Shown piece after piece: positions 3,371 through 8,574 of a DNA stretch of 64,000 nt (positions are counted from its first letter, which is position 1; every line of letters starts with the position of its first letter). Where the stretch lies: the NCBI RefSeq assembly GCF_900103505.1, contig NZ_FNIA01000002.1:124001-188000 (forward strand), read 5' to 3'. Source of the stretch: Haloarchaeobius iranensis. GTDB taxonomy: Archaea > Halobacteriota > Halobacteria > Halobacteriales > Natrialbaceae. A model generated the notes under the pieces. That model searched no databases. It was not told the DNA's origin and was given only the letters and a program-made list of their open reading frames with translations. The translations under genes were made by a program, and so were the position numbers.

Positions 3371-4279
3371 TTACGCGGTGCCGTAGACCTCGTCGCGGAC
3401 CCAGTCGTAGCCCTCGTCCTCGAGCTGCTCTGCGAGCTCGGGGCCGCCGGACTTCGCGATGCGGCCGTCGATCATGACGTGGACGTGGTCGGGTTCGACG
3501 TAGTCGAGGATGCGCTGGTAGTGGGTGATCTGCAGGACACCCGTGCCCTGCTCGTCGCGGAGCGCGTTGATGCCGTGGGAAACGTCCTGCAGGCGGTCGA
3601 TGTCCAGTCCGGAGTCTATCTCGTCGAGCACCGCGATGCTCGGCTCGAGGATGGCCGCCTGGAGCACCTCGTTCTGCTTCTTCTCGCCGCCGGAGAAGCC
3701 GGCGTTGAGGTAGCGCTGGGCGAACTTCTCGTCCATGTCCAGCTGCTCCATCTTCGCCTGGAGGAGCTTCTGGAACTCTGCGACGCCGACCTCGCCCTCG
3801 TCCGCGGGACCCTCCATCGGGGAGGTGTCGTAGCCGTCCTCCTCGTCTTCCGGCTCCTCTTCGTCGTCCTCGAAGAGCTCCTCGCGCTCCTCGAGCTTCG
3901 CGTTGAGAGCGGTGCGGAGGAAGTTCGTCATCGTGACGCCCTCGATCTCGGCCGGGTACTGGAAGCCGAGGAAGATGCCGAGGGCGGCGCGCTCGTTGGG
4001 TTCGAGGTCGAGCAGGTCCCAGGTGCGCTTGTCCTCGGGAATCTCGAAGTCCTCGCCGAAGTCACCCGGCTCGAGGTGGAGTAGTACCTCGCCCTCTGTC
4101 ACTTCGTAGGCCGGGTGGCCGGCGACGATCTTCGCCGTCGTGGACTTCCCGGAGCCGTTCGGTCCCATCAGGGCGTGGATCTCGCCGGATTCGACCTCGA
4201 GGTCGACGCCGTCGAGAATCTTCTCGCCATCGTCTTCTGCAACGCTCGCGTGGAGATTGTTGAGTTCGAGTTTTGCCAT
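3371..4279 (-). CDS. sufC: Fe-S cluster assembly ATPase SufC
   Basis: A 302-residue ABC-type ATPase that powers the SufBCD scaffold. Walker A is GPNGSGKST near residue 40, the signature is FSGGEKKQNE, and Walker B is IAVLDEIDSGLD, followed by the family His in ITHYQRIL. It is about 50 residues longer than bacterial SufC because of a very acidic segment near residues 125-165 (FEDDEEEPEDEEDGYDT), between the Q-loop and signature regions. This is probably a haloarchaeal surface insertion. It is the first gene of the operon. A CCTATCAC element on the minus strand near 4304-4310 is at the right distance to be its TATA box. Confidence 0.96.
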   Translation of the reverse strand: MAKLELNNLHASVAEDDGEKILDGVDLEVESGEIHALMGPNGSGKSTTAKIVAGHPAYEVTEGEVLLHLEPGDFGEDFEIPEDKRTWDLLDLEPNERAALGIFLGFQYPAEIEGVTMTNFLRTALNAKLEEREELFEDDEEEPEDEEDGYDTSPMEGPADEGEVGVAEFQKLLQAKMEQLDMDEKFAQRYLNAGFSGGEKKQNEVLQAAILEPSIAVLDEIDSGLDIDRLQDVSHGINALRDEQGTGVLQITHYQRILDYVEPDHVHVMIDGRIAKSGGPELAEQLEDEGYDWVRDEVYGTA

Positions 4280-4431: not shown

Positions 4432-7400
4432 CTACATGAAGCTGCCCAGCCCAGTCTGCTCCTGTCCGGTCTTGACCTCCTCCCAGGAGATACCGAGCGC
4501 CTCGATGACGCGAGCGATGGGGCCTTTCAGGGTCTTGTCGAGCATCTTGTCGTAGTCGACCTCGAACTCCGCCGGAATCTGGTCTGCGTAGTCGAAGCAG
4601 ATGACGTCCTGTTCGCGCTTGAACTCGCCGTAGCGGTGGTCCCGCTGCGGGTCGAACTCGCCCGCGTCCTCGAGCTCCTTGAAGTAGTCCGGGTGGACCT
4701 TCTCGAGGTAGAGCCGTTTGGGCTTCGAGCCGCGGTCGAAGTTCGTCCCGAACAGCAGGTTCGCGTACTTCGCACCGCGGACGTGGGCCGTGTCCGTGTC
4801 GTAGTTGTCGATGCGCTTGCCGATGCCGCCCGGGATGGCGATCTCGTCGTAGCTGTACTCGCCCGCCAGGAACCGCTCGATGACGTCGTGGATGTACTCC
4901 GTTATCTCGGACTCCTCGGCACCGCGGACCACCTTGTCGATGACCTCGTGCTGGACCTCCTTCGTGATGGGCGCGATGTCCGAGCGCTTGTACTCGAAGC
5001 CGGTGATGTCGATATCGTCGACGTGTTTGCCCTCCTTCCAGATGATGTGGCCCGCGTAGCGCTTCTTCTTGCCCGCCTGGAAGAACCGCCGGTAGAGCTT
5101 CTCGAACTCGATCTGGAAGCGGTGCTCCTCGCCGCCCTCGATGTCGACGTTCAGCTCCTCCGCGGCGAAGGCGTCGTAGGAGTCGTTGATGTGCTCCTCT
5201 ATCTCGAAGGACTGCTCGATGGCTCCCTCGGGAGTCACGTCCTGTCCGAGTTCCAACATTACAGAATCAGTGTCACCATAAGCAACCTGGTAGTTTATCT
5301 CGTTCGCGGCCTGTTCGGTGAACCGGATTACCTCTCTCCCTGTAGCGGTTACGGCGGCACCCATCTCCTTGTCGTAGAGACGGAACCGGTCCCACCCAAG
5401 AACGCCGTAGAGAGAATTCATAATTACTTTGACAGCTGCCTGCTGCTGGTCGTACCGCTCGTAGTCCTGGCTGCCGGGGTCGTGCTGGTTCCGCAACTCC
5501 TTCTTGGCCTCGCGCTCCGCCAGCAGTTCGTCGACCATCGCCCGGATCATCCCGTCCTCGTCCTTGCGGAAGTGGGTGCCGTTGGGGGCGCGGTACGTGT
5601 CGCCGTCGAAGGATTCGGGGTCGACCTTCGTCTCGGGGCTGGCGTTGATGGTCACCATGCACATCGGGTAGAGCGATTTCAGGTCGAGTACCGTCACCAT
5701 CTCCTTGACGCCCGTGATGGGGTCGAACACCGCGCCGCCCTCGTAGTCCTCGGACTCCTGCTTGCCCTTCGAGGGGAGCGCGAACTCGCCGTGGACCTTC
5801 TGGAGGACGTACATGTCGACGGCGTCGCCGGCGGTCGGGGCGTCCTCGAGCTTGCAGCCGACGAACGTGCGCACCTCGTCGTAGAACGAGATGATGTCCT
5901 GCTTCGCGTCGATCTCGACGCAGAGCTCCACGTCGCGGAGGTTGTACTCCAGCAGCCGGCCGGGGTCGTTCTCCCAGAGGTCGCCGATGTCGCCGGTGTA
6001 GCGCTCCTTGCCGGCGTCGAGCTCGGTCTCGCCGACGGCGTCGAGCCGGTAGGAGTCGAGCTCGGTGAACTGCCGGCTCTTGTAGGCGTACAGCAGGTCG
6101 AAGACGACCCGCCCCTTCACGTTCGGGCCGCCCCAGCCCGAGCGCCAGACCTCGTTCACCCGGGAGAGCCGGTTCGGGTCGATGTCCTGGTCGTGCATCG
6201 TCGAGTCGAGCACCTCCAGCCGGTCGAGGAAGTACGGGGCGTCGAAGTCGTCACAGTTGTGGACCAGACAGCTCTCGGCAACGAAGTTGTGGGTAGTGGT
6301 TTCGATGTCGTACGTCGTCTCGGTACCGGTCACGCTGACGTCGGTAACTTCGACGAACACGTACTCCTCCCAGTCATCGTTCACCGACTCGTGTCGTTTG
6401 AGGTTGATTCCACGTCGGTGCTTGTCCTCTCCAACACGCCTGACTTCGGAGTCCGAGTCGGGGTCGAAGAGGGCGTACGAGATGTTCTCGGTCTGTCCAC
6501 TTCTCCCACCCTCGAACGCCCGGAGGGACTCCACTTTGGCCGGATGGTTCATCTCCGGGAGCACTCGCCGCTTGAGACGGCCGATATCTCGTTGTGAATC
6601 GGGAATCCTGACAACGTTCCGATTCTGCTGCGCATAGATGCCGAGGCGTTTGAAGAGTTTGACGTACCACTCACCGATGCTCTCGTTCTCTGCTGCGACA
6701 GTAATCCCGGTCTTTCCGATACTCCCGTCACCATCGATAACTCCGGCAAGGAACGAGCTGACGTACTCTTCCGGCATCCGGAACACTGGTGATAGGTCCA
6801 CGTCAGTTTCGTTCTTATCACCCAACGGGATCCCGAGTCCGTTGAACGCGTACATCGTCGCGTAATCGAGAACGTTCTGCTTGTAACAGCCCTTCCCGTC
6901 GGGTGTCTGCGTGTTGCTGCCGGGGAACTGGTCGTGGAGTTCGGGCTTCGTGTTGTAGAACCGGACGCCACTGTCGGTCGACATCGTTCCGTCGGTCAAG
7001 ACCAGTCCAGCAAGGTAGAGCTCGTCCTCCGTCATCTCCCGGTCCAGTTCCGCCCCCGTCTCTTTGTGTACACGCCCGCCGTCCGGAACGGGAACATCGT
7101 AGTTGGCTGCAGCTTCCCGACACCGTTCTACACTCCAGACCGTGGGGGATGGGTGGTAGAGCGTCTCTTTTTCCACATCAAATCGTTCGGCGAGTTCGGT
7201 GACTGCACCGTACGGTAACTCCCCCTTGAACCGGCTAATCGTCTCTTGTGAGGCGTACCGTTGCCTGTCAACCGGGACGAGTTCGCTGAACGTTGGCAGC
7301 CGTTCTTCGGCTACCGGGAGCCGTCTCGGTTTGAGGACGTAGTCCCCGACCTCGATGTCGCCTCCCTCCTTCCAGTCGACGTCCGCATCGTCACCGACCA

Positions 7401-8574
7401 TGATACGATGGTCTGCTGACGATTCGAGCGTCGTTCCGTCGTCGAGCGTGAATTCGAGGATTTCCTTCTCGCTCGACCACTTGTTCGTCACTTCGGCAAC
7501 TGCCGTCTCCTGTCCCTCCGAACCAACGACAGCATCTCCGACCGAGACGTCTTTGATCTCAGTTGTCGTCCCGTCCGCCATCTGGACCTCCGAGTCCTCC
7601 GGAAGACAGTTCCAGCCGGTCATCACGTCGGGGTCGGTCTCGTCGATGTAGTCGAGGAACGCCTCGAGCATCTTCCGCTCGGCCTCGAGCTGGTCCTCTC
7701 CGTCGAAGATCTCGACGCGGAGGTCCAGCTCGCCCTCGATGGGGTCGTAGTCCGGCAGTGCGTCCGGGGCATCGCCGTCGTACTCGTCGGCGATGGCGAG
7801 CCAGACGACGTACTCGTCGTCGTAGGAGTCGTGCGAGGTGAGACAGATGATGGGCTCGTCGCCGTCCTCGGGGAAGCCGTTGCGGTCGTCGACCTCGATG
7901 TCGAACGTGTTGACCCGCGGGTCGGCCGTCAGCTCGGTCGCCTCGACCTCCTCGTGTGGGACCCGAATCGAGCCGCTCTCGCCGCGGCGAGCCGGGACCG
8001 TGATACCGCTGTTGATGCCCTTGTCGACGAGGAACCGGTTCGGGAACAGCACGTCGGCCTCGTAGTGGTCGAATCGGTCGCGGATGTTCCCCACGTCGCG
8101 CGGCGTGCGGCCGAAGATCTTCGTCAGGCGCTCCCCCCGGATGCTCTCGTAGGGCTCGCCGTCCACGTCGGTCGCCTCCCAGTCGACGATGACGTTCTCG
8201 TCCTCGAGTTCGGACTCGTCGAGCGAGTCGGTCGGCGCGTAGAAGTACGGCTGGAAACCGAACACCATGACGTGCTCGGCGGTCCCTTCGGCGGTCCGGC
8301 CGAAGACGTGCATCACGGGCTGTTCGTGCTCGCCCGACCCCTCGACGGTGTAGTCCACCTGCATGACGGAGAGCGAGACGGTGCCGTCGGGGTCGGGGAA
8401 CAGGGCCTCGTCGGCTTCGACGAAGTCGGCGTTCTCGAGACCAGGCGTGGTGACGGCCTCGGCCTCGGCGACGAGGTCGGACTCGCTGAGTCCGTCGTCC
8501 TCGCTGTCGGCCGACCCGCCGTCACCGAACGCGCCCCCGAGCGTCAGCTGTTCGGAATCCCCTGCGTCGGTCAT
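4432..8574 (-). CDS. polB: B-family replicative DNA polymerase with an intein
   Basis: A 1380-residue precursor; removing the intein (residues 323-773) leaves about 929 residues, normal for haloarchaeal PolB. Exo I is FDIEVDD (about 224-230). Exo II is split by the intein (GWN before it, CDDFD after it). Exo III is YNLRDVELC. Polymerase motif A is DLKSLYPMC, motif B is KVIMNSLYG and motif C is YGDTDS, all intact, so both polymerase and proofreading activities should be present after splicing. The ATG start fits a TTTTTACT box about 26 nt upstream on the minus strand. Codons encoding motifs B and C (about 5222-5440) are much AT-richer than the rest of the gene. The intein is described separately. 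Confidence 0.97.
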   Translation of the reverse strand: MTDAGDSEQLTLGGAFGDGGSADSEDDGLSESDLVAEAEAVTTPGLENADFVEADEALFPDPDGTVSLSVMQVDYTVEGSGEHEQPVMHVFGRTAEGTAEHVMVFGFQPYFYAPTDSLDESELEDENVIVDWEATDVDGEPYESIRGERLTKIFGRTPRDVGNIRDRFDHYEADVLFPNRFLVDKGINSGITVPARRGESGSIRVPHEEVEATELTADPRVNTFDIEVDDRNGFPEDGDEPIICLTSHDSYDDEYVVWLAIADEYDGDAPDALPDYDPIEGELDLRVEIFDGEDQLEAERKMLEAFLDYIDETDPDVMTGWNCLPEDSEVQMADGTTTEIKDVSVGDAVVGSEGQETAVAEVTNKWSSEKEILEFTLDDGTTLESSADHRIMVGDDADVDWKEGGDIEVGDYVLKPRRLPVAEERLPTFSELVPVDRQRYASQETISRFKGELPYGAVTELAERFDVEKETLYHPSPTVWSVERCREAAANYDVPVPDGGRVHKETGAELDREMTEDELYLAGLVLTDGTMSTDSGVRFYNTKPELHDQFPGSNTQTPDGKGCYKQNVLDYATMYAFNGLGIPLGDKNETDVDLSPVFRMPEEYVSSFLAGVIDGDGSIGKTGITVAAENESIGEWYVKLFKRLGIYAQQNRNVVRIPDSQRDIGRLKRRVLPEMNHPAKVESLRAFEGGRSGQTENISYALFDPDSDSEVRRVGEDKHRRGINLKRHESVNDDWEEYVFVEVTDVSVTGTETTYDIETTTHNFVAESCLVHNCDDFDAPYFLDRLEVLDSTMHDQDIDPNRLSRVNEVWRSGWGGPNVKGRVVFDLLYAYKSRQFTELDSYRLDAVGETELDAGKERYTGDIGDLWENDPGRLLEYNLRDVELCVEIDAKQDIISFYDEVRTFVGCKLEDAPTAGDAVDMYVLQKVHGEFALPSKGKQESEDYEGGAVFDPITGVKEMVTVLDLKSLYPMCMVTINASPETKVDPESFDGDTYRAPNGTHFRKDEDGMIRAMVDELLAEREAKKELRNQHDPGSQDYERYDQQQAAVKVIMNSLYGVLGWDRFRLYDKEMGAAVTATGREVIRFTEQAANEINYQVAYGDTDSVMLELGQDVTPEGAIEQSFEIEEHINDSYDAFAAEELNVDIEGGEEHRFQIEFEKLYRRFFQAGKKKRYAGHIIWKEGKHVDDIDITGFEYKRSDIAPITKEVQHEVIDKVVRGAEESEITEYIHDVIERFLAGEYSYDEIAIPGGIGKRIDNYDTDTAHVRGAKYANLLFGTNFDRGSKPKRLYLEKVHPDYFKELEDAGEFDPQRDHRYGEFKREQDVICFDYADQIPAEFEVDYDKMLDKTLKGPIARVIEALGISWEEVKTGQEQTGLGSFM
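6256..7608 (-). mobile_element. PolB intein (Hint domain plus LAGLIDADG homing endonuclease)
   Basis: This 451-residue in-frame insertion starts at Cys323 (CLPEDSEVQMADG, block A) and ends with HNFVAESCLVHN, the block G terminal His-Asn, before Cys774 of the C-extein. Block B is SSADHRIMV, with Ser where Thr is usual. Block F contains TTYDIETT. Two LAGLIDADG dodecapeptides are visible, LYLAGLVLTDGT (about 519-530) and FLAGVIDGDGSI (about 608-619), both with the acidic residue, so the homing endonuclease may be active. It interrupts the Exo II motif, not the three polymerase motifs. The DNA is somewhat AT-richer than the exteins, as expected for a mobile element. The product is a self-splicing protein element. 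Confidence 0.95.

Follow-up and report, generated by a model that had tools for sequence, protein, structure and literature searches.

The family B DNA polymerase gene (polB) of Haloarchaeobius iranensis contains a short patch in which silent positions have been altered around two intein insertion sites, both of them empty, and this patch is one instance of a pattern that recurs at intein homing sites. We hypothesize that empty homing sites have repeatedly undergone synonymous recoding, with escape from the homing endonuclease as its most likely driver, a reading to which we assign a probability of roughly 0.6. The gene was analyzed within a stretch of 64,000 nucleotides (the window; positions 124,001 to 188,000 of contig NZ_FNIA01000002.1), and all coordinates are positions in that window.

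A silent patch over two empty intein sites in polB

The polB gene of H. iranensis is interrupted by one intein, located at the Exo II site (Table 1), in which Pfam recognizes both intein splicing and LAGLIDADG endonuclease domains. Along the gene, GC3 is high over the extein, as is normal, moderately lower in the intein, and sharply reduced at the patch. A likelihood scan of the extein codons, set to find one low-GC3 segment, placed it at the patch, with GC3 of 0.559 within it versus 0.951 outside (LR 76.9). From the patch's own amino acids and the codon usage of polB, a GC3 of 0.952 ± 0.025 would be expected, and the lowest window in 1,000 amino-acid-preserving codon shuffles of polB reached 0.779; these shuffles rule out amino acid composition as the cause. 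The low-GC3 patch is real and far beyond chance.

A sequence-only reading of this DNA had noted an AT-rich patch at 5222 to 5440, with GC3 unlike that of its flanks, and had described it as covering exactly the stretch from motif B to motif C. Its borders agree to a few bases with the likelihood optimum given in Table 1, and the difference from the flanks was confirmed when GC3 was computed along polB. The word "exactly" holds to within tens of bases, as the patch extends past the B insertion point by 8 codons at one end and past the C insertion point by 16 codons at the other. Both sites are indeed empty, and the flanks of the resident Exo II intein, which the same reading had considered unchanged, are without a GC3 dip.

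Table 1. Features of the polB region in the window (a slash within a motif marks the insertion point)
Feature	Position	Strand	Description	Basis
polB, family B DNA polymerase with intein	4432..8574	-	1380 aa	Pfam PF00136, PF03104
Resident intein, Exo II site (GWN/C)	6256..7608	-	451 aa, residues 323-773	PF14890, PF14528, PF05204
Recoded polB patch	5224..5439	-	extein codons 595-666, protein normal	likelihood segmentation, codon shuffles, codon listing
Empty intein site B	5413..5418	-	codons N602/S603 of KVIMN/SLYG, junction 5416/5415	
Empty intein site C	5269..5274	-	codons D650/T651 of YGD/TDS, junction 5272/5271	

Comparison within the genus

Six genomes of the genus were compared, namely, H. 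iranensis and five congeners (G001 to G005). Motifs B and C, which the sequence-only reading had named as intein sites in other archaea, are occupied in two of them: G004 carries a 411-aa intein at motif B (KVIMN/S), with LAGLIDADG_3 and Hint_2 domains above the Pfam cut-off, and G002 carries a 440-aa intein at motif C (YGD/TDS), in which Pfam detected an intein splicing domain only and no endonuclease domain. The polB of H. iranensis has the Exo II intein alone, and those of G001, G003, and G005 are without inteins.

Third-base identity among the congeners is 0.7 to 1.0 over most of polB and about 0.4 to 0.7 in the patch, where GC3 is 0.63 in the intein-free G003 and about 0.86 to 0.89 in G001 and G005. 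The change between H. iranensis and G003 is confined to silent positions: amino acid identity is 0.93 in the patch and 0.92 and 0.96 in the two flanks, whereas synonymous identity is 0.58 in the patch versus 0.92 and 0.91 in the flanks. At codon positions 1 and 2 of the patch, H. iranensis, G001, G002, G003, and G005 form one clade (support of 84 to 86) with G004 outside it, and the flank trees place all six congeners together with full support. Separate trees for patch and flanks, which the sequence-only reading had proposed as a check, reveal no discordance for H. iranensis, whose patch stays with the genus at codon positions 1 and 2. The position of G004 outside the genus in the patch tree is indicative only, as an AU test, albeit of low power, did not reject a six-congener clade in the patch; the silent sites of the patch are too saturated for phylogenetic placement.

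The patch of G004 has a different character. Its codons from about 595 to 694 are divergent, with amino acid identity to the congeners of 0.78 to 0.81, which is the level of distant genera. This apparently foreign block (loci L005 and L008) lies mostly 3' of the B intein and extends beyond motif C. The H. iranensis patch has properties expected of a recoded allele, in that both sites are empty, each is occupied in a congener, and change is limited to silent positions. A co-converted tract would be as remote as a foreign donor at synonymous and nonsynonymous sites alike, which does not hold for H. iranensis and fits the G004 patch instead. The likeliest history for H. iranensis is that native polB DNA was recoded at silent positions around two sites that had been exposed to the inteins of relatives.

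Recurrence across haloarchaeal polB

Codon maps of 186 distinct haloarchaeal polB genes from two genome collections contain four insertion sites: Exo II (X), motif A (DLK/SLYP), B, and C. GC3 drops by more than 0.15 in 45% of these genes at B and in 46% at C, versus 1 to 5% in three control windows, and the dip is also seen in genes without an intein at B or C (43% and 40%, respectively). Synonymous mismatch, scored at codons with identical amino acids in 145 close pairs outside Haloferax, peaks twice, at B (0.41 to 0.44) and at C (0.45 to 0.56), against a baseline of 0.157. It is mildly raised between the peaks and is back at baseline by codon 588 and codon 666, about 10 to 15 codons beyond the site pair, and the B and C halves of the H. 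iranensis patch are separate peaks in this wider data set. The Exo II site and motif A have smaller rises in synonymous mismatch. Changes of recoded state on the flank tree number at least 40 at B and at least 50 at C; therefore, the recoded state is recurrent rather than inherited once.

In the seven Haloferax genomes, the C intein is present in some species only and the patch has hardly diverged, from which it follows that intein gain alone need not leave a scar. Haloferax loci L016 to L022 and L092 to L095 vary in the presence of the C intein with almost nil local synonymous divergence, unlike Halorubrum and Haloarchaeobius. As for the inteins themselves, most of those at the B site (44 haloarchaeal polB genes) end in Gln (VGQ) rather than Asn before the +1 Ser, and a few are about 355 aa long rather than 410.

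Silent recoding versus foreign blocks

A foreign tract alters silent and amino acid sites together, whereas recoding alters silent sites only, and we used this difference to classify diverged pairs among the close pairs, the latter having flank third-base identity of 0.80 or more. Where B and C were empty in both members, 25 pairs were recoded and 1 was block-like, compared with 38 recoded and 41 block-like pairs in which at least one member carried an intein (Fisher p of 5e-6, a value that is too small, as pairs share genomes). The amino acid difference in the patch of recoded empty pairs was 0.066, compared with 0.067 expected if silent sites alone had changed and 0.193 expected from a raised local mutation rate under constant selection. 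In the 43 strongly dipping genomes, the third bases of fourfold sites are near uniform (A 0.19, C 0.33, G 0.25, and T 0.23) and the transition/transversion ratio is 0.66 in the patch versus 0.27 to 0.28 in the flanks, as for sites that have been altered many times without direction.

Gene conversion does seem to have taken place at these sites in other genomes. The B inteins of L174 and L194 are 95% identical and the third bases of codons 603 to 630 are identical, with flank identity of only 0.72, which reads as a clear case of co-conversion. More generally, B intein similarity tracks the right flank of B (partial r of 0.187, p = 0.003), and pairs discordant in occupancy have their highest divergence at C. 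As intein similarity correlates only with the right flank and the G004 block lies mostly 3', co-conversion at B looks one-sided.

A matching donor for the H. iranensis patch was not found among 391 genomes of the class. The best match to its DNA was the congener G003 (84%), followed by a genome of another family, G311 (83% across 215 bases), which is about equally distant in the flanks. Across genera, no pair of distant genomes shared patch third-base identity above 0.8 with flank identity below 0.72, a test in which control windows do yield such pairs, since GC-rich codons agree by default. Viral and plasmid donors were rejected: halovirus PolB reached at most 40% protein identity, viral contigs gave zero matches, and the best plasmid match was 68%. 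A donor may still lie outside the sampled genomes.

Occupied and empty sites in polB, MCM, and PolD DP2

The pattern repeats at the intein sites of two other genes, in GC3 and divergence for MCM and mainly in GC3 for PolD DP2, such that three genes in all have a dip co-located with intein sites. The 60 haloarchaeal MCM genes analyzed have inteins at three positions, codons 333, 360, and 399. Over codons 326 to 361, near site a, synonymous mismatch rises from a baseline of 0.168 to as much as 0.52, with a fall in GC3 as well. In 30 DP2 genes, the sole intein site seen, codon 923, coincides with the largest drop in GC3 along the gene (-0.147, compared with values mostly within ±0.08 at other positions), and synonymous mismatch there is 0.26 to 0.36, which is not unique along DP2. 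GC3 alone is an imperfect marker, as an MCM control window (codons 150 to 168), remote from the sampled intein sites, also dips, in 35% of genomes. In SufC, the intein-free P-loop ATPase gene adjoining polB, no GC3 dip was seen at the P-loop. The only SufC dip is a strong GC3 drop over codons 1 to 18 (4226 to 4279 in the window, and in relatives; 90% of genomes), which is likely an ordinary 5'-end effect.

Were recoding protective against the endonuclease, stronger recoding would be expected in empty than in occupied alleles. Such a difference is present at MCM-a, where empties were more recoded in 6/6 clusters (stratified permutation, p = 0.0002) and by 7 to 0 in phylogenetically independent pairs (median p of 0.016; p of 0.22 at a cut-off of -0.15), and at MCM-d (p = 0.001). 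For DP2, the GC3 deviation was -0.161 in empty (n = 13) and -0.029 in occupied (n = 6) alleles, a small sample. The block-versus-recoded classification had no power in MCM, in which synonymous-only change is also found among intein carriers.

For polB, the comparison of occupied with empty alleles gave +0.035 at B and +0.059 at C (p of 0.09 to 0.18). The sign at A, B, and C is that seen in MCM, without significance at any of the three, and the occupancy effect was not significant by pairing, by clusters, or by independent pairs. The Exo II site (codons 312 to 331, 186 genomes) is reversed, with occupied alleles having lower GC3 (-0.13 within clusters), the opposite of MCM. The intein frequency of a cluster and the dip of its empties were uncorrelated among the few clusters available, and dips also occur in clusters without a present B or C intein. 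For polB itself, the occupancy result is where the escape hypothesis is weakest.

Proposed endonuclease escape and its alternatives

We propose that the polB patch is a synonymous scar over two intein homing sites and that, in essential replication genes of haloarchaea, the DNA around intein insertion points has been re-spelled repeatedly. The LAGLIDADG enzyme of an intein would recognize tens of base pairs spanning the empty site; with the protein of an essential gene fixed there, the uninvaded survivors would be alleles with silent DNA changes, which would lower endonuclease recognition and possibly reduce the local homology available for homing. In intein-free alleles, silent positions near the insertion points have been randomized, with fourfold third bases near uniform and GC3 down from about 0.95 to about 0.55; purifying selection has preserved the protein, and codon positions distant from the sites are unaffected. 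Invasion from a diverged source would instead co-convert a foreign flanking block in which amino acids change too, as may have happened in G004. We infer endonuclease attack as the selective agent, and with it that ancestors of H. iranensis met B- and C-type inteins. A point against escape is that the patch also takes in the stretch between the two sites and is thereby broader than a single recognition site. According to PMC3024317 and PMC10643990, cutting by LAGLIDADG endonucleases withstands many synonymous substitutions, such that many changes would be needed for escape.

The sequence-only reading had linked the patch to intein history, a link that is strongly supported by the inteins of relatives at exactly these sites and by the repetition of the pattern at other intein sites. 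Its preferred account was a gene conversion tract of foreign origin, acquired either during the gain or loss of an intein or through replacement of the site by an allele without one. Conversion of this kind fits G004, the L174/L194 pair, and the flank correlation at B. It also fits roughly half of the diverged close pairs in which at least one member has an intein, and block-type divergence is concentrated in such pairs. As an explanation for H. iranensis we consider it unlikely: the amino acids and codon positions 1 and 2 of its patch are genus-native, the changes are silent only, no donor emerged from the class genomes, halovirus PolB, plasmids, or viral contigs, and a recoded donor would itself require explanation. 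The other account of that reading, synonymous change that blocks endonuclease recognition, fits the H. iranensis patch better, although the escape step in it is our inference.

Mutagenic repair offers a further route to the same scar, in which repeated cutting and error-prone repair raise the local mutation rate and purifying selection purges the protein changes. It predicts centering on the cut sites and a stronger effect in empties, as seen in MCM, and end-joining after cutting has been described in Haloferax (PMC10643990). This process is an improbable main cause, given that amino acid change in recoded empty pairs is about a third of that expected with constant dN/dS, that the near-uniform third-base spectrum and the transition/transversion ratio are not a deamination signature, and that the reported Haloferax products include deletions, which are not keepable in an essential gene. 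Selection acting locally on the DNA or RNA for reasons other than inteins (codon pausing, a regulatory element, RNA structure, or a conserved catalytic motif) could be invoked because the sites fall within conserved catalytic motifs. It is very unlikely to account for the pattern, as synonymous sites there are hypervariable rather than conserved, the seven Haloferax genomes are little diverged at the same motifs, the SufC P-loop is without a dip, intein sites are where the dip falls in three separate genes, and an Rfam search of the window gave zero matches.

Relation to known systems

Published work on haloarchaeal inteins covers their distribution, homing, and co-conversion (PMC4071816, PMC3024317, and PMC10643990). 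In Haloferax, escaper point mutations arose in plasmids with the MCM-a target that survived endonuclease attack, and a target with mostly synonymous differences was retained intact in 3/5 plasmids (PMC10643990); together, these observations make escape by target change plausible. The MCM and polB homing systems described in PMC10643990 and PMC3024317 concern the same genes, organism class, and MCM sites as ours, with flanks that can move with the intein and escaper mutations that arise in the target under endonuclease attack. They differ in that the sections available to us do not report a GC3 or synonymous scar at empties or natural synonymous resistance, the resistance case there being a downstream proline at MCM-d. 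A codon usage or synonymous scar at homing sites goes unmentioned in the available sections of all three papers (PMC4071816, PMC3024317, and PMC10643990); subscription literature lay outside the search, and we claim no priority. The polB intein alleles polB-a, -b, -c, and -d in PMC4071816 have four insertion sites and a patchy distribution, and the sites X, A, B, and C are also four; that study deals with intein presence and phylogeny rather than empty-site DNA, and its polB-a, -b, -c, and -d are not matched here to X, A, B, and C.

We see roughly even odds that haloarchaea have a widespread, recurrent natural resistance to homing selfish elements through silent recoding, with a class-wide scar that records past attack in several genes. 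If the scars are resistance alleles, they would constitute a natural long-term record of an arms race in several essential genes throughout a class of archaea, from which past intein exposure could be read at empty sites. Codon dips or odd synonymous divergence in haloarchaeal replication genes should be interpreted with caution, as intein history, and not horizontal transfer or expression, can lie behind them.

Theory on homing elements and gene drives predicts resistance alleles that alter the target DNA and not the protein. Homing gene drives provide a close functional counterpart, in which silent target changes in an essential gene block cutting with the protein kept. Such alleles are known from laboratory or engineered systems, whereas the haloarchaeal case is proposed to be natural, recurrent, and class-wide, with putative resistance to cutting.
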